DNA of 7,893 nt from a bacterium (GTDB taxonomy: Bacteria; ARS69), in the NCBI GenBank assembly GCA_025774865.1, contig JALGZO010000485.1, forward strand, positions 1 to 7,893, given 5' to 3'. The position numbers and the translations under genes are program-made. Every line of letters starts with the position of its first letter. The stretch's first letter is position 1. A model generated the notes under the pieces. It was not told the origin of the DNA and made no database searches. It worked only from the letters and a program-made list of their open reading frames with translations. Below, in pieces: positions 1 to 6,808 of the stretch.

Positions 1-2
1 GC

Positions 3-617
3 CGATGGCGGCGCGTCGCGGTCCGGATGGCGCGGCCGGCCGGCGCTCGGCGAGTGCTCGACCTCGCGGCGGGCACCGGCGACCTGGCGATGACGTTCGC
101 CCGCGCGGAGGGTTTCGAGGGGGAGGTCCTCGGGCTCGACTTCAGTGGCGAGATGGTCCGACGGGCGCGACAGAAAGCGGCCGCCCGACGCCTGTCGAGC
201 CGCGTGCAGTTTCGCGAGGGGGATGCGCTCGAGATCCCCGAGCCGGATGGATACTTCGATATCGTCTCGATCGGTTTCGGCGTGCGCAATTTCGCCGACG
301 CGGAGAAAGGACTTCTGGAGGCGCACCGGGTACTCGCGCCCGGTGGGCGCCTCGTCGTGCTGGACTTCTTCAAGAGACACGAGAATCCCCTGCTTCGACT
401 GTACCTCGACCAGATCGTGCCCCGGATCGGGCGCTGGATCTCGCGGAGCCCGAGCGCCTACGGCTACCTTCGACACTCGACCCGAGGGTTCCTGAGCCCC
501 GACGAGTTCGTCTCCCTGCTTCACTCGCTCGGTTTCTCGCCGATTGTATTGAATCGGTTGACGTGGGGGATTGCCCATTGCATCGTCGCGACGAAGCCAG
601 CGGAGCGCCAGGAGTAA
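3..617 (+). CDS. ubiE: UbiE/MenG-type quinone C-methyltransferase, 5' partial
   Basis: The visible 204 residues are the main part of a SAM-dependent methyltransferase that adds the ring C-methyl group in ubiquinone or menaquinone synthesis, a soluble or membrane-associated step. The frame is open to the left edge and starts W-R-R-V-A-V-R before ATG 27. This matches the segment that precedes the SAM motif in UbiE proteins, so ATG 27 is probably internal and the true start lies outside the window. SAM motif I is VLDLAAGTGDLA, followed by GLDFSGEMV with the acidic ribose-binding position, then the family signature IGFGVRNFAD and the post-motif LAPGGRLVVLDF. The C-terminal part (Y-L-R-H-S-T-R-G-F, GIAHCIVATKP) fits the usual end of the family, and the TAA stop is at 615-617. 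Which quinone is made cannot be told from this protein. The family assignment is firm; only the N-terminus is missing. Confidence 0.93.
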   Translation, partial: RWRRVAVRMARPAGARRVLDLAAGTGDLAMTFARAEGFEGEVLGLDFSGEMVRRARQKAAARRLSSRVQFREGDALEIPEPDGYFDIVSIGFGVRNFADAEKGLLEAHRVLAPGGRLVVLDFFKRHENPLLRLYLDQIVPRIGRWISRSPSAYGYLRHSTRGFLSPDEFVSLLHSLGFSPIVLNRLTWGIAHCIVATKPAERQE

Positions 618-667: not shown

Positions 668-851
668 ATGAGCCAGACCGAGTCGTTCCTCCCGGACCCG
701 CCCTCCACGAACCTCGGTGAGAAGCTCTGGCGGGCGACTCAGCTTCTCGCCCTGCTCTACGTCTTTCTTCTCGCCATCTCGATGATGGGGGCCGCGTTCA
801 AGCTCCTCGGCAAGGACTTCGCCGAGACCCTGATCACGTCGACCTCGAACC
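668..851 (+). pseudogene. N-terminal fragment of frameshifted Na/Pi symporter
   Basis: This 61-codon segment in frame 2 encodes MSQTESFLPDPPSTNLGEKL, then a hydrophobic first membrane segment (LLALLYVFLLAISMMG) and FKLLGKDFAETLITSTSN. That is the usual opening of NptA/YjbB-type sodium/phosphate symporters. After the Asn codon at 848-850 the symporter continues in frame 3 from base 852 (TAIIQSSSTTTS). The frame therefore shifts by one base. The residues that normally link TSN to TA-IIQSSS (about 11, roughly P-F-x-G-L-x-x-G-I-L-A in homologs I recall) are absent, which implies a net loss of about 32 bases. The frame-2 reading stays open to 1249 but is meaningless after 851. Start choice: ATG 668 has GCGAGGA immediately before it, with spacing shorter than ideal. 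The in-frame ATG 629 is an alternative, with GGAG at 611-614. The gene is either broken in the organism or miscalled here. Confidence 0.75.
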
Positions 852-902
852 ACCGCGATCATCCAGAGCTCCTCCACGACGACGTCGCTGATCGTCGGGC
901 TC

Positions 903-1796
903 GTGGCGGCGGGCGCCGTCTCGGTGCAGGGCGCGGTCCCGATGATCATGGGCGCGAACATCGGAACGACGGTCACGAACACGATCGTCGCCATGGCCTC
1001 GGTCAACCGGCGCGACGAGTTCCGGCGCTCTTTCGCGGGCGCCACGATGCACGACTTCTTCAACGTCATCGCAGTCATCGTCATCCTGCCGCTCGAGCTG
1101 ACGACACACATGCTCGAGCGCATGTCGGGAGCGCTCGCCACGGTGCTCGTCGGATCCGGTCAGGTCGAGTTCGACAGTCCGGTGAAAGCGATCACGAAAC
1201 CGGTCGCGAAGGGATTCGTCCACTGGCTGGAGGGGCTCGGGTGGGGTGATCCGGTCGTCGGGACCTTCGTCCTCGTGGTGGCAGTCCTCGGGATCTTCCT
1301 CGCGCTCTCCCGGCTCCCGTCCCTGATGAGGGAAATGTTCCTCTCCCGGGCCGAGGGCGCCTTCTACCGGCTGATGCACCGAGGCGGCCTCGTGGGGATG
1401 GGAGTCGGCGTCTTCATCACGGTTCTCGTGCAGTCGAGCTCGATCACGACATCGCTTTTGGTTCCGATGATCGGAGCGGGTATCATCCCGCTGGAGGCGG
1501 CGTTCTCGATCACGCTGGGCGCGAACATCGGGACCACCGTGACGGCGCTGTTGGCATCCACGGCGGGGACGCACGACGCCGTCGCGATCGCACTGGTCCA
1601 CCTGCTCTTCAACATCATGGGGATCTGTATCATCTTCCCGATTCGCGCAATCCGCCGGATCCCGATCCGTCTGGCCGAGAACCTCGCGGAGTTCTCGCTG
1701 CGGTCGCGATTGGTTCCGCTGCTCTACTTGGTATTTCTCTTTTTCCTCCTGCCGGGTCTCATCATTCTGGGGCAGAGGATCTTGTCGGGAAGCTGA
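903..1796 (+). CDS. Na+/phosphate symporter family protein, main body (frame broken upstream)
   Basis: This is the bulk of a sodium-dependent phosphate symporter of the inner membrane (PF02690 type, like NptA/YjbB). The homologous reading starts at base 852 (TAIIQSSSTTTSLIVGLV). GTG 903 is only the first possible start codon in the frame, not a likely native start. Both inverted repeats of the family are visible: the first QSSSTTTS with GANIGTTVTN, and the second VLVQSSSITTSLLVPM with GANIGTTVTALLAS. Between them lies ATMHDFFNVIAVIVILPLEL, characteristic of the family. Several membrane segments follow, and the protein ends in a hydrophobic helix (LVPLLYLVFLFFLLPGLIIL) before TGA 1794-1796. 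Joined to the fragment at 668-851 it gives about 375 residues, about 11 short of what I expect. The next gene encodes a PhoU-like protein 17 bases downstream, probably in the same transcript. The family is certain; function is doubtful unless the frameshift is a sequence error. Confidence 0.85.
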   Translation: MAAGAVSVQGAVPMIMGANIGTTVTNTIVAMASVNRRDEFRRSFAGATMHDFFNVIAVIVILPLELTTHMLERMSGALATVLVGSGQVEFDSPVKAITKPVAKGFVHWLEGLGWGDPVVGTFVLVVAVLGIFLALSRLPSLMREMFLSRAEGAFYRLMHRGGLVGMGVGVFITVLVQSSSITTSLLVPMIGAGIIPLEAAFSITLGANIGTTVTALLASTAGTHDAVAIALVHLLFNIMGICIIFPIRAIRRIPIRLAENLAEFSLRSRLVPLLYLVFLFFLLPGLIILGQRILSGS

Positions 1797-1813: not shown

Positions 1814-2479
1814 ATGTTCAAATCACTCGCCGATTTCTTTCGAGGTGTCGACTGGACCGGTGCCGTCGTCGACAGCTTCGACGAGATGCTGGCCATCGCG
1901 GAGAGGAACTTCATTCTCTGCGCGGACCATCTCGTGGGAACCGACGACCCCGCGGTGGTCCGCGAAGAGATCTATGCCCGCGACCAGGACATCAACTCGC
2001 GGGAGCGCGCCATCCGTCGCCGGATCATCTCGCACCTCGCGGCGAGTCCCCCGGAGCACGAGATCCCGATGGCCCTGGTGCTCACGAGCCTCGTGAAGGA
2101 CGCGGAGCGCATCGGCGACTACGTGAAGAATCTCTACGAGACGCACCAGATTCACGACTTCGACCGCGCAGTTTACGACCGGTACTACGACGGGATCCGT
2201 ACCCAGATGAAGGCGCTCTTCCGGGAAGCGCGTGAGGCCTTTCGCGAGAGCAATCCAGCGAAAGCCCACGCCACCATCACGGCCGGACGGGAGACCATGA
2301 AGCACTGCGAGAACGCGATCCGTGAGATCGCGTCGACGGAGCATTCGGTCCCCCAGGCCGTCGCGCTCGTGCTCATCGGCCGCCACTACAAGAGGATCTG
2401 TGCCCACCTCGTGAACATCGCGACCTCGGTCGTCGTCCCGGTCGATCGCCTCGACTACTACGACGAGAGCTTGAAGTAG
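1814..2479 (+). CDS. PhoU-like (PhoU domain) protein
   Basis: This is a 221-residue soluble, almost wholly helical protein of the PhoU/DUF47-like group, which acts in phosphate homeostasis. Two helix-bundle halves can be seen: one around residues 86-110 with the signature KDAERIGDYVKNL, and one around 180-207 with RHYKRICAHLVNIATSVV. Both correspond to the PhoU pattern of Asp/His-x-x-Arg-Ile followed by Asn at the metal-binding helices. The start ATG is supported by GGGGAGG at 1801-1807, 6 bases upstream. It follows the Na/Pi symporter after 17 bases, so co-transcription is likely. PhoU domains are often found beside or fused to Na/Pi symporters, where they are thought to modulate uptake; that role here is inferred. 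Its last 22 bases overlap the end of the convergent oxidoreductase gene. It is shorter at the C-terminus than two-domain E. coli PhoU (about 240 residues) but looks complete. Confidence 0.88.
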   Translation: MFKSLADFFRGVDWTGAVVDSFDEMLAIAERNFILCADHLVGTDDPAVVREEIYARDQDINSRERAIRRRIISHLAASPPEHEIPMALVLTSLVKDAERIGDYVKNLYETHQIHDFDRAVYDRYYDGIRTQMKALFREAREAFRESNPAKAHATITAGRETMKHCENAIREIASTEHSVPQAVALVLIGRHYKRICAHLVNIATSVVVPVDRLDYYDESLK

Positions 2480-4014
2480 GAGCCGCGCCCGGCGGCCACG
2501 GCTTTCGCGGCCAACCACCCCGGCGCGCCGGTGATTCCACCGCCCGGATGGCTCCCGCTGCCACCGAGGAAGAGGCCCCCGATCGGCGTCTCGTAGCGTG
2601 CGCATTCCGGCGTGGGGCGCAGGACAAGCTGGTCGAGCGCGTGATCCCCGTGGAACAGGTGCCCTCCGGTGAGTCCGTAACGCTTCTCCAGATCCACCGG
2701 GGTCAGCACTTCGCGGCCGACGATGGAGCTTCGAGTTCCGGGCGCAACCTTCTCGAGAGCCCCGATGACCGTTTCGCCCAGCTGCTCGCGACTCTCGTCC
2801 GTCCAGCCACCCTCGAGATCGTAGGGCGCGAAGCTCGCGAGGATCGACACGACGCCGTGCCCCTCGGGCGCGAGACTCGCGTCCGCCACCGTCGGCACGT
2901 GGATGTCGAGGAGCGGCGCCCCGGAGATGCGGCGGTACTTCACCGCGTCGAACGCGCGCTCCATGTCGTCGAACGTCTCTCCGACGCGGACGAACTCGAC
3001 TTCGAGGTCCGGCCGCCCGGCGAACCGTAGCGGGCCACCGAGCGCGAGGCTCACCTTCGCCACGTTCCCTTGCGAGCGCCAGGCCGCGACGTGGCGCTCG
3101 AGCTGAGGGGCGCGATCCCGGCGGCCGACGAGCTCCAGAAAGGTCCGCCGCGGATCGCACGTGGCGAGGACGATCGGAGCCTCCAGAACCTCCCCGCCGG
3201 ACAGCCGGACCCCGCGCACGGCGCCGTCGGACACCGGGATGCCTGTGACCGCCTCACCCGTCCGGATCTCGACGCCTTGACTCCCGGCGGCGCGCTCGAG
3301 CGCCTCGACGAACGCCCGCGGCCCCTTCCCTGCGGCCCGGCCGCTGAGCGCCTCGTACCGAAAGAGGTTCGCATTGCTGCCCGGCGACCAGGGCCCCATG
3401 AAGGCTCCGGCGAGCGCCGGCGCCGCGAGCGCGCAGCGGAGGCACTCGGTCTCGAACCACTCGTTCAACCAGTCCGCGACGCACATCGGAAGGATCCGCA
3501 GGACTTCGCGCATGTCCCGCCGGCCCAGACGGCGCAACGCCCAGCCGCGTCGGGCCCCTTCGAGAAGTGAGGGGGTCTCGAGCCCGGGGGGCGGCTCGGC
3601 GAGCACGTGAGCGGCGAAGCGGCGCGTGCGCGAGAAGAACTGGCGGTACCCGGCGTACCGCGAGACATCTCGGTCGGAGTGCGCCTCGATCTCGGGCGCC
3701 GCTTTCGCTGGATCGTGAGAGAGCAAGAGTCCTCGGCCGTCGACTTGCGGCACGAAGACCGGCGGCGGCTCCGCCGTCAGCTCGAGGCCGTGGCGCTCGA
3801 GCTCCAACGCCTCGACGACCTCGGGCCGAATCCCCGTCGTGTCGTGGAGGAGCCCGGCCGTCCGGTAGCCCGGATGGAATTCGTCGCCCGCCGCGACGCC
3901 GCCGATCGCGTCGCGCCGCTCCAGGACCACCACCTTGCGGCCGCCCTTCGCGAGCATCGCGGCCGCCGTCAGCCCGTTGGGTCCCGCACCGATGACGGCC
4001 ACGTCGCACTTCAT
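2458..4014 (-). CDS. FAD-dependent oxidoreductase, CrtI/PYROXD2-like, diverged paralog
   Basis: This 518-residue flavoprotein is of the phytoene-desaturase superfamily (COG1233). The N-terminal Rossmann motif AVIGAGPNG lies at about residues 6-14, followed by VVVLERRDAIGG (28-39) with Glu32 for the FAD ribose. The C-terminal FAD-closing motif SGSHPGGGITGAPG is at about 486-499. Between them, AFDAVKYRRISGAPLLDIHVPTVAD, YGLTGGHLFHGDHALDQLVLRP and RYETPIGGL align with the upstream gene, so the two are tandem paralogs. The start ATG 4014 is fixed by a 4-base ATGA overlap with the stop of that gene. I see no Shine-Dalgarno there, so translational coupling is likely. A longer frame extends upstream to 4284, but it only shadows the neighbour. 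No signal peptide is visible. This copy differs from its partner: GKGP replaces the partner's GGTGQ at about 229-232, and it lacks the partner's HxxSxxSY-like stretch. Substrate and acceptor are unknown. Confidence 0.9.
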   Translation of the reverse strand: MKCDVAVIGAGPNGLTAAAMLAKGGRKVVVLERRDAIGGVAAGDEFHPGYRTAGLLHDTTGIRPEVVEALELERHGLELTAEPPPVFVPQVDGRGLLLSHDPAKAAPEIEAHSDRDVSRYAGYRQFFSRTRRFAAHVLAEPPPGLETPSLLEGARRGWALRRLGRRDMREVLRILPMCVADWLNEWFETECLRCALAAPALAGAFMGPWSPGSNANLFRYEALSGRAAGKGPRAFVEALERAAGSQGVEIRTGEAVTGIPVSDGAVRGVRLSGGEVLEAPIVLATCDPRRTFLELVGRRDRAPQLERHVAAWRSQGNVAKVSLALGGPLRFAGRPDLEVEFVRVGETFDDMERAFDAVKYRRISGAPLLDIHVPTVADASLAPEGHGVVSILASFAPYDLEGGWTDESREQLGETVIGALEKVAPGTRSSIVGREVLTPVDLEKRYGLTGGHLFHGDHALDQLVLRPTPECARYETPIGGLFLGGSGSHPGGGITGAPGWLAAKAVAAGRGSYFKLSS

Positions 4015-5609
4015 GCGGCACGCGCCGCGAGGATCGTCTTCGCGCAGAGCTCTCCCGGGCCTCCCATGATCCCACCGCCCGGGTGCGTTCCCGACGCGCA
4101 CATCCAGAGATTCCGGATCGGGGTCCGGTAGTGCGCCCAGCCGGCGACGGGCCGCTGGAAGAGAAGCTGCTCCGGACTCAGCTCCCCGTGGAAGATGTTG
4201 CCCTCGGTCAATCCGAACTCCTGTTCCAGATCCCACGGGCTCAGAACCTGCCGGAAGAGGATGGACTCCTTCAGGCCAGGGCAATACTCCTCGAGCGTGT
4301 CGACGACGGCGTCGCCGAGCGCCTCACGTCGCTCCGGCCAGTGCGACGCCCCCTCCTTGATGTGGTACGGCGCGTACTGCACGAAGCACGAGACGATGTG
4401 CTTCCCCGGCGGCGCCACGCTCGGATCGACGACGGAGGGAATGACCACGTTCAGATAGGGCCGTTCCGAGAAATCGCCGTACTTCGCCTGATCGTACGCC
4501 CGCTCGAGGTAGTCGATGCTCGGCGCGATCGCGATGTCCCCGCGCAGATGCAACGCGCCGTTCGCCCCGTTCGGCCGGCTCGAGAATTCGGGCAGGCGAT
4601 CGACGGCGAGATTCACCTTCGCGGAGCTTCCCCGGAGCTTGTAGCGTTTGATCTGGGAGAGGAATTCCGGCGCGAGGTTCTCCTCCCCGACGAGTCCTCG
4701 GAACGTGCGGTGGGGATCGAGTCCCGACACGACGACCTTCGCGCGAATCTCTTCCCCGTCCTCCAGCACCACGCCGGTCGCCCGGCCCCCTTCGATGATC
4801 AATCGCTCGACCGCCGCCTCGGTTCGGATCTCCGCGCCGTGACTCTTCGCGGAGGACGCGATCGCCAGGCTCAACTGCCCGGTGCCACCGCGCGCGAATC
4901 CCCAGGAGCGAAAGGCACCGTCGATCTCGCCCATGTAGTGGTGGAGCAGCACGTAGGCCGTGCCCGGAGACCGCACGCCGAGGAACGTCCCGATGATCCC
5001 CGAGACCGACATGGGCGACTTCAGCACCGGCGACTCGAACCACAGGTCGAGGAAATCCACCGCGCTCATCGTCAGGAGCTGCAGATGCACGTGCTGCAGG
5101 TCCGGTCCGAGCGTCTCGAACTTGCGACCGAGCCGCAGCAGCCGCGCGATCTGGCGGGGATCGAGCGACGCCGGATCGGGGGCCGGCCCATCGATCAAGC
5201 CCTTCGCGAAGTGCGCGATCTTCCCCATCACGACGCCGAACTCGGGGTACGTCTCCGCGTCCCTGGCGGAGAAGCGCGCGATCTCGCGGCGCGTGTCGTG
5301 CGGGTCGGCCCAGCGACAGAGGGAGTCTCCGTCCGGCAGAGGCAGAAACGAGCACTCCAGCGGAATCATCTGCAGGCCGTGCTCCGCGAGAGAGAGCTCC
5401 CGGATGATGTGCGGGCGAAAGAGGCTCACGACGTACGAGCACACCGAGAAATGGAAGCCGGGGTAGAGCTCCTCGGTGGCCGCCGCTCCCCCGAGCACGT
5501 GGCGTCGCTCGAGGACGAGAACGCGTCGGCCCGCCTTCGCCAGGTACGCGGCGCAGACGAGCCCGTTGTGACCACCGCCCACGACGATCGCATCCCACGG
5601 CTTTGCCAT
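4011..5609 (-). CDS. PYROXD2-like FAD-dependent oxidoreductase
   Basis: This 532-residue flavoprotein resembles human PYROXD2 and its bacterial relatives (phytoene-desaturase superfamily). The Rossmann motif VVGGGHNGL is at about residues 9-17, VLVLERRHVLGGAAATEE at about 30-47 with Glu34 for FAD ribose binding, and PGFHFSVCSYVVSLFRPHI at 50-68 is very like the PYROXD2 stretch I recall. Then come WGFARGGTGQLSLAIA (236-251), a central GSSAKVNLAVDRLPEF (327-342), FGLTEGNIFHGELSPEQLLFQRP (465-487) and the FAD-closing ASGTHPGGGIMGGPG (505-519). The start ATG 5609 has GAGAGGAAG about 8 bases upstream and overlaps the stop of the GcvT-like gene by one base (TGATG). The TGA stop at 4013-4011 overlaps the next start. 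A longer reading reaching 6437 is antisense and out-of-frame noise over the neighbouring gene. PYROXD2 itself has no settled reaction, so substrate and electron acceptor are open. Confidence 0.93.
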   Translation of the reverse strand: MAKPWDAIVVGGGHNGLVCAAYLAKAGRRVLVLERRHVLGGAAATEELYPGFHFSVCSYVVSLFRPHIIRELSLAEHGLQMIPLECSFLPLPDGDSLCRWADPHDTRREIARFSARDAETYPEFGVVMGKIAHFAKGLIDGPAPDPASLDPRQIARLLRLGRKFETLGPDLQHVHLQLLTMSAVDFLDLWFESPVLKSPMSVSGIIGTFLGVRSPGTAYVLLHHYMGEIDGAFRSWGFARGGTGQLSLAIASSAKSHGAEIRTEAAVERLIIEGGRATGVVLEDGEEIRAKVVVSGLDPHRTFRGLVGEENLAPEFLSQIKRYKLRGSSAKVNLAVDRLPEFSSRPNGANGALHLRGDIAIAPSIDYLERAYDQAKYGDFSERPYLNVVIPSVVDPSVAPPGKHIVSCFVQYAPYHIKEGASHWPERREALGDAVVDTLEEYCPGLKESILFRQVLSPWDLEQEFGLTEGNIFHGELSPEQLLFQRPVAGWAHYRTPIRNLWMCASGTHPGGGIMGGPGELCAKTILAARAA

Positions 5610-6808
5610 CACGCGCGCTTCCTCTCCGGGTCGAAGAACGGCTTGCGGCGAACGGTGGCTCGTACCCGGTGGCGCACGTACTCCACGGTCACCTCGATGC
5701 GGAGCTCCTCTCCCACCTTTCCGTGCGGTGCCATCACGGTGGCCAGCGCCAGGTTCTTCTTGAGGATGGGTGACCACGAGCCGCTCGTCGCGTACCCCAC
5801 CTGAAGGCCGCTCGCGTTGTACACGGGAACCGAGCCACGCCACGCCGAACCGTGGATCTCCGGAGGCAGACCGAGCCTCTCGAACAGCACGGCGGTCTCG
5901 TCCCAATCGATCTCGAGACCGACGAAGCGGCGCACCGGACCCGCCCGCTTCTCGGCTCTCAGTGCCGCTTGCCCGATGAAGGGCTCGCGCTTCAGGTTCA
6001 CCGTCCACCCGAGCCCCGATTCGTACGGTGTCGACTTCCTCGATTCGATGAGACAGTGGTTCGCGCTGTAGTAGTCGACGCCGTTCATGATGAATCCCGC
6101 CTCCACGCGGGCCATGTCGAGGGCGTCGAGCCCGTTCGGCAGCATTCCGAAGGGTCCGCCGGCGTCCGTGAGCACGTCCCAGAGGCCGAGGGCGTGCTCG
6201 TTCGGAACCCAGATCTCGTAGCCGAGGTCGCCCGAGTAACCGGTGCGGGTAATCGTCGCCTCGAAGCCGTCGAATCGGCCGGGAGTGAGGCGGAAGAATC
6301 CGAGACCGTCCAGGTCGGCATCCGTCGCCCGCTTCAAGATCTCTCGCGACTGCGGTCCCTGCAGCGACAGCACGGCGAGTTTGCCCGTCGAGTCGTCGAT
6401 GCTCACGTCGAAGCCACGCCGGTTCCGGTGGAACCACCAGAGGCTCGGCTCGGCGGCGGTGACCCGGAAGCGGTCCTCCTCGAGTCGCGAGACGGTACCG
6501 TCGTCGAGGAGCTTGCCTTCTTCGTCACACCAGCAGCAGTAGGTGACTTGACCCACCCGGAGCTTCGCGATGTTCCGCACCATGACGCGCGACAGGAACT
6601 CCACGGCATCGGGGCCCCGGACCTCGTACTTGAAGAGCGGCGTCACGTCCTGGAGACCCGCCGAGTGGCGGATGGCGAAGTACTCCCGCTCGTGATACGA
6701 GCCGTACGAACGCACCGCGTGGTAGCCGGCCCAGTCCTTCCAGAGGAGACTCTGACAGAGGGCTGCGGTCCGCGGGTGAAACGGGCTCGGGATGGGCAGG
6801 GCACTCAC
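5609..6808 (-). CDS. GcvT-family aminomethyltransferase-like protein
   Basis: This protein of up to 399 residues has the GcvT/aminomethyltransferase fold, which binds tetrahydrofolate and takes C1 units (glycine cleavage T-protein, DmdA, sarcosine and dimethylglycine dehydrogenase C-termini). Motifs in order from the GTG: YFAIRHSAGLQDVTPLFKYEVRG (43-65), GKLLDDGTVSRL (98-109) with the Asp pair that matches the catalytic Asp region of T-protein, TRTGYSGDLGYEIW (187-200), LDMARVEAGF (230-239), ESGLGWTVNLKREPFIG (263-279) and GYATSGSWSPILKKN (338-352). It is unlikely to be the glycine-cleavage gcvT, because no gcvH or gcvP is nearby. It heads an operon with two FAD oxidoreductases. The start is uncertain: GTG 6808 sits inside a near-perfect Shine-Dalgarno (6814-6805). 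The in-frame CTG 6799 lies 8 bases after GGAGG and would give 396 residues. A CCxC cluster at 91-94 precedes the catalytic region. Confidence 0.9.
   Translation of the reverse strand: MSALPIPSPFHPRTAALCQSLLWKDWAGYHAVRSYGSYHEREYFAIRHSAGLQDVTPLFKYEVRGPDAVEFLSRVMVRNIAKLRVGQVTYCCWCDEEGKLLDDGTVSRLEEDRFRVTAAEPSLWWFHRNRRGFDVSIDDSTGKLAVLSLQGPQSREILKRATDADLDGLGFFRLTPGRFDGFEATITRTGYSGDLGYEIWVPNEHALGLWDVLTDAGGPFGMLPNGLDALDMARVEAGFIMNGVDYYSANHCLIESRKSTPYESGLGWTVNLKREPFIGQAALRAEKRAGPVRRFVGLEIDWDETAVLFERLGLPPEIHGSAWRGSVPVYNASGLQVGYATSGSWSPILKKNLALATVMAPHGKVGEELRIEVTVEYVRHRVRATVRRKPFFDPERKRA

Follow-up and report, generated by a model that had tools for sequence, protein, structure and literature searches.

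What do three tightly packed genes, one encoding a GcvT-like protein and two encoding FAD oxidoreductases (here OXA and OXB), accomplish together? We asked this of the window, that is, the whole 7893-bp stretch of DNA analyzed, which makes up all of contig G000:C489 in a 4.7-Mb draft genome assembled into 785 contigs (Table 1). Our main reading, to which we assign a probability of about 0.7, is that the trio is a predicted oxidative N-demethylation cassette feeding a one-carbon (C1) unit to tetrahydrofolate (THF). The sequence-only reading of this DNA had claimed that TGATG and ATGA overlaps join the three genes on the minus strand and that OXB extends to position 2458. We read the junctions directly; on the minus strand the letters where GcvT meets OXA are GTGATGG and those where OXA meets OXB are GCATGAAG, and therefore both overlaps are correct as claimed. 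Elsewhere in the window the Na/Pi cotransporter-like gene has its start (668) and its body (903–1796) in different frames and lacks, near 840–860, a conserved stretch that relatives L004 and L005 have, the cause being either a deletion or an assembly error.

Table 1. Features of the 7893-bp window.
Feature	Position	Strand	Remarks
ubiE-like gene	1–617	+	
Na/Pi cotransporter-like gene	668–1796	+	broken; named from reading the sequence, no family scan
phoU-like gene	1814–2479	+	62.6 bits vs cut-off of 130 bits
OXB, second FAD oxidoreductase	4014–2458	-	ATG start, 518 aa
ATGA start/stop overlap, OXA/OXB	4011–4014	-	read from sequence
OXA, FAD oxidoreductase	5609–4011	-	ATG start, 532 aa
TGATG stop/start overlap, GcvT-like/OXA	5607–5611	-	read from sequence
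GcvT-like gene, product predicted folate-binding	6808–5609	-	GTG start, 399 aa
dus gene	beyond the GcvT-like gene	+	runs off the contig end

The protein families that the sequence-only reading had named, a GcvT fold and two FAD oxidoreductases, were borne out by domain searches and structural models. Pfam identified GCV_T (PF01571) and GCV_T_C (PF08669) in the GcvT-like protein, and its top curated model was that of the trimethylamine N-oxide (TMAO) demethylase (NF053776, 282.9 of 1100 bits), matched over the GcvT half only (model positions 388–761 of 763). Scores against the T-protein of the glycine cleavage system (220/300 bits for NF001567 and 182/235.85 for TIGR00528) and against sarcosine oxidase alpha (186 bits) fell under the cut-offs, and the ranking of solved structures ran from TMAO demethylase (chain 9q59, 1e-51) through T-proteins and sarcosine oxidase alpha to dimethylglycine oxidase. 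Residues Y90, D102, E198, R234, and E236 are invariant in 58 homologs, and D103, an Asp in 57 of the 58 and a Glu in one, aligns to the second Asp of the T-protein DD motif, which we take to be the catalytic Asp in GcvT/DMGO structures. Judged by its domains and by these catalytic Asp and folate residues, the protein is a GcvT-fold folate enzyme in the broad sense, and we predict that it takes up the released C1 unit on THF. We rejected it as a true glycine-cleavage T-protein, given the missed curated scores and a window that contains neither gcvH nor gcvP, an absence already pointed out from the sequence; true glycine-cleavage genes lie elsewhere in the genome, with gcvT on contig G000:C549 and a gcvP-like gene downstream of it.

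OXA and OXB share 36% identity, and Pfam places both in FAD amine-oxidase/DAO-type folds. Their AlphaFold models (pLDDT 88 for OXA and 93 for OXB) are phytoene/carotenoid-desaturase-like: the nearest solved fold to OXA was the carotenoid desaturase 4rep (Z 32.6, rmsd 2.9, 469 residues aligned), followed by amine oxidases, and OXB matched 4rep with a Foldseek E-value of 1.6e-25. As modeled, the two proteins are members of the CrtI/amine-oxidase fold superfamily; since both models match desaturases and then amine oxidases, the fold leaves the choice between the two undecided. OXA is highly conserved, with a mean column identity of 73% (61 rows), compared with 59% for the GcvT-like protein and 48% for OXB. 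A role in defense was considered and rejected, PADLOC giving desaturase matches only, all of them weak.

A search of GTDB genomes with three GcvT-like query sequences gave 80 loci; five of them come from records whose title gives no phylum, and the rest cover 13 named phyla. One carrier, Paraliomyxa miuraensis (L017), is in culture. The complete trio in the order GcvT-OXA-OXB is found at 63 of these, OXB being present in all 63, and 16 of the remaining 17 are interrupted by contig ends; the sole true exception is L050, where GcvT and OXA are set apart by a 1.5-kb insertion and OXB lies on another contig. Both in the window and in each of the 63 complete trios the genes are separate, with no flavoprotein-GcvT fusion among them, and median gaps are -1 bp for GcvT-OXA and 0 bp for OXA-OXB (from 45 and 49 pairs, respectively, whose starts were curated). 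Apparent fusions of the GcvT-like gene to OXA turned out to be frame-overlap artefacts from high-GC ORFs. The arrangement of the trio is far beyond what chance would give.

Whole-genome tallies of co-occurrence and REARRANGEMENT extended this linkage. In Bacteroidota (296 genomes), the GcvT-like gene is present in eight genomes and OXA, defined here by an E-value below 1e-200, in the same eight (8/8 vs 0/288); the two are adjacent in all eight, and other OXA matches are remote. Among 199 genomes of Acidobacteriota, the phylum of the Thermoanaerobaculia record G006, OXA occurs in 46/46 genomes with the GcvT-like gene vs 5/153 without it, and 40 of these 46 have both genes within 3 kb of each other (20 divergent, 19 in tandem with GcvT first, and one with GcvT downstream). 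The Fisher p values for co-occurrence (7e-40 and 8e-16) are descriptive only, since they ignore shared ancestry. A sister cassette in Pseudomonadota, OXA2-OXB2-GcvT, keeps that order, an independent one, at 10/10 loci examined, and the same order appears in one planctomycete. Linkage has thus survived rearrangement of the genes into different orders and into divergent pairs, which favors joint function over passive synteny. The sequence-only reading had, beforehand, let its proposal stand or fall with conservation beyond close relatives, and we found the trio kept across no fewer than 13 phyla, its co-occurrence nearly perfect and its genes remaining linked where their order has been rearranged. 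Mirror-tree correlations were 0.78 for OXA-GcvT, 0.66 for OXB-GcvT, and 0.54 for OXA-OXB (maxima of the Mantel null 0.18–0.28), values that may partly reflect shared species history. OXA and GcvT look like the core of the system, because they are the best-correlated pair, are kept together in L050, and are found in L103 with no OXB. Separately, the 2.4-Mb acidobacterial genome G919 (L202, L203, L204, and L205) shows a strong family expansion, with four GcvT-like genes and no fewer than 13 that resemble OXA, many of them arrayed in tandem.

The genes found next to the cassette suggest the class of its substrate. In the window's own family a Rieske oxygenase is the only recurrent extra neighbor, found by Pfam in 7/74 downstream and 3/96 upstream proteins and by tblastn beside 12 of about 77 loci, whether downstream, upstream, or divergent; most trio loci have no Rieske neighbor. 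The four neighboring Rieske proteins that were scanned all had the glycine betaine monooxygenase GbcA as their best model (about 114–213 of 670 bits), and GbcA-like Rieskes were present at two more Acidobacteriota loci, L208 and L209. When mapped on the OXA tree, the Rieske label required six changes, at least five of them forced by supported branches. In Bacteroidota the Rieske occurs in 2/296 genomes, both of them trio carriers; both had been picked for their Rieske, so this co-occurrence test is weak. The Pseudomonadota sister cassettes, which are diverged and belong to a separate OXA2 clade, have a BetI-like TetR regulator at 10/10 loci (that of L165 scoring above the curated cut-off) and a PotD-type solute-binding protein near 8/10, and some are accompanied by class III aminotransferases, a BADH-like aldehyde dehydrogenase, or a crotonobetainyl-CoA-hydratase-like protein. 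A third type, the OXA3-GcvT pair of L103, adjoins a class III aminotransferase; an aminobutyraldehyde dehydrogenase scoring above its cut-off lies beside the L206 cassette, P5C-dehydrogenase-like genes lie beside L204 and L210, and in one locus (L023) MTHFR is downstream. The recurrent folate, methylamine, and betaine neighbors that the sequence-only reading had looked toward are therefore represented by GbcA-like Rieskes, BetI, PotD-type transporters, aminotransferases, and the single MTHFR, and the Rieske, BetI, PotD, aminotransferase, and dehydrogenase families together indicate amines and betaines. Beside the cassette in the window and in its relatives, genomes G002 and G003, we found only housekeeping genes (ubiE and a Na/Pi transporter, with phoU and dus also in the window), and neither a Rieske nor an amine transporter. 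On another contig of the window's genome, G000:C757, there is an ORF of more than 630 residues (L200:1147-3054, minus strand) in which a BetI-like TetR domain is fused with a Rieske domain of the GbcA-like kind, an unusual combination of regulator and enzyme.

Our proposal for the cassette can be laid out in steps. Where a GbcA-like Rieske is encoded alongside, as in many lineages, it would remove the first methyl of a quaternary amine; OXA would then use its FAD to oxidize the next N-methyl group, that of a tertiary methylamine, to an iminium, and the GcvT-like protein would move the C1 unit to THF as 5,10-methylene-THF, such that no free formaldehyde would arise, the C1 unit being channeled on to THF. 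OXB would subsequently oxidize the remaining methyl, that of a secondary methylamine, or may have a partner role with OXA. The substrate is most likely an amine of the betaine-derived or methylated amino-acid type. The most specific candidate route, from dimethylglycine through sarcosine to glycine, is one that we put forward tentatively and regard as somewhat unlikely; methylated lysine or gamma-butyrobetaine-like amines are alternatives. In the window's own genome a betaine-to-glycine route is plausible because of the GbcA-like Rieske/BetI-like ORF on another contig, and a search of that genome's contigs detected no other GcvT-domain N-demethylase.

The sequence-only reading had left the methylated compound as N-, S-, or O-linked, and of these the evidence favors N. 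An S- or O-demethylation would have the GcvT-like protein transfer the methyl group directly, in the manner of DmdA or LigM, with the flavoproteins acting later, for example by oxidizing the demethylated product. The models of DMSP demethylase (DmdA) and of LigM and DesA do match the GcvT-like protein, but weakly and far under their curated cut-offs (137.7 of 410, 70 of 580, and 66 of 800 bits, respectively), and the protein retains the catalytic Asp of the DMGO/GcvT type. To our knowledge, the known S- and O-demethylases of the GcvT fold require no obligate flavoprotein partner, and because of this, and because sulfonium and methoxy-aromatic genes do not recur among the neighbors, where amine genes are found instead (the GbcA-like Rieske, BetI, and aminotransferases), such chemistry is unsupported and we consider it improbable. 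A different possibility is that the amine chemistry is as proposed and the coupling to folate is not, with the flavoproteins releasing formaldehyde and the GcvT-like protein serving as a structural or transport subunit. Solo PYROXD2-like proteins without GcvT neighbors would fit this, as would genome G866, which retains OXA-OXB without an adjacent GcvT (L196); against it, the folate-contact and catalytic residues are invariant in 57–58 of 58 homologs, and co-occurrence is 46/46 and 8/8, so that we give this alternative little credence.

The fold itself suggests that OXA and OXB could be carotenoid/isoprenoid or lipid desaturases or isomerases, with the GcvT-like protein acting, as YgfZ does, in folate-dependent assembly or repair. 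The first rank of 4rep agrees with this, as does CrtO being the best curated profile (308 bits for OXA and 240 for OXB, of 1000); both proteins nevertheless fall under all CrtI and CrtO cut-offs, including that of crtI_fam (122.9 and 108.3 of 238.1 bits). The neighbor tallies contain no recurring carotenoid or isoprenoid family, just as they show no sulfonium or aromatic-methoxy pattern, the GcvT-like protein lies much nearer to the GcvT domains of amine demethylases, and the window's genome has another, weak match to the GcvT fold elsewhere. We hold this explanation to be very unlikely. Oxidative N-demethylation coupled to folate is thus the reading that we prefer for the trio.

The description of both flavoproteins as PYROXD2-like stood in part: OXA belongs to the same flavoprotein family as human PYROXD2 and its bacterial solo homologs, but the resemblance of OXB to PYROXD2 is distant, and the human protein appears to fall in a sister clade of solo proteins. 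For these comparisons the human PYROXD2 sequence was one checked at four published residue positions. A tree built from 79 flavoproteins gathers the GcvT-linked OXAs into a single clade (support 97), and the solo proteins, OXA3, and the human PYROXD2 sequence form a neighboring group (support 93) with several open forks; human PYROXD2 thereby appears to group with the solo bacterial proteins, outside the GcvT-linked clade. The human sequence used is about 41% identical to OXA over 533 residues, and it has the Gly426, Met461, Phe484, and Val498 expected from published variants (PMC8777681, PMC9763692); the comparison is a lead only. Human genetics has tied PYROXD2 variation to N6-methyllysine and dimethyllysine (PMC9730628, PMC9763692) and to urinary trimethylamine and plasma dimethylamine (PMC3169529), and the biochemical function of the protein is described as unclear (PMC8777681). 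Oxidation of N-methyl amines would explain both sets of links. Among the neighbors of solo PYROXD2-like genes we saw no convincing recurrent partner. At L104:1835-6613 one such gene has as neighbors an SSS-type symporter and a DAO protein that is sarcosine-oxidase-like/N-methyltryptophan-oxidase-like, and the window's genome encodes a further PYROXD2-like paralog on contig G000:C68 (L105:58-1329, minus strand) that is 46% identical to OXA and has two in-frame TAG codons within the match.

Neither the trio nor a demethylase of the GcvT/PYROXD2 type was found described in the full-text literature that we searched, which takes in few subscription journals or preprints, and the trio appears to be undescribed. 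At roughly even odds, we speculate that it represents an undescribed, phylum-spanning class of folate-coupled N-demethylases in which PYROXD2-family flavoproteins replace DAO-type dehydrogenases, with several substrate-specific cassettes, and that human PYROXD2 works in mitochondria by the same chemistry, as an oxidase of N-methyl amines (methyllysine). If the demethylation reading is right, the trio would be another solution to folate-linked oxidative N-demethylation, different in structure from the first and carried by many uncultured lineages of soils and the sea, and a new route from betaines and methylated amines into one-carbon metabolism; the role of PYROXD2, a human disease gene, could then be reduced to a simple assay of the oxidation of N-methyl amines, methyllysine among them, with a folate acceptor needed or not.

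Such chemistry is already known from DMGDH, SARDH, sarcosine oxidase, and TMAO demethylase, from which the trio differs in its flavin fold, in being spread over three genes, and in having two copies of the flavoprotein. DMGDH/dimethylglycine oxidase, SARDH, and heterotetrameric sarcosine oxidase likewise couple N-methyl oxidation by FAD to a GcvT-fold domain making methylene-THF, a coupling that is predicted for the trio, and the GcvT-like protein matches chains of the dimethylglycine oxidase and sarcosine oxidase type at 1e-23 to 1e-37. In these enzymes the flavoprotein is of the DAO type and in most cases forms one chain with the GcvT domain, whereas the trio has two separate flavoproteins of the CrtI/amine-oxidase fold and a stand-alone GcvT-like protein. 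In glycine betaine catabolism GbcA is followed by the Dgc and Sox enzymes, and the GbcA-like Rieskes that recur beside the cassette score far under the GbcA cut-off. The best sequence match of the GcvT-like protein is to the C-terminal GcvT half of the TMAO demethylase Tdm (NF053776; PDB 9q59/9q5a); this half is all that the two have in common, and the Tdm model is without a flavoprotein partner, in contrast to the two flavoproteins encoded with the GcvT-like protein here.
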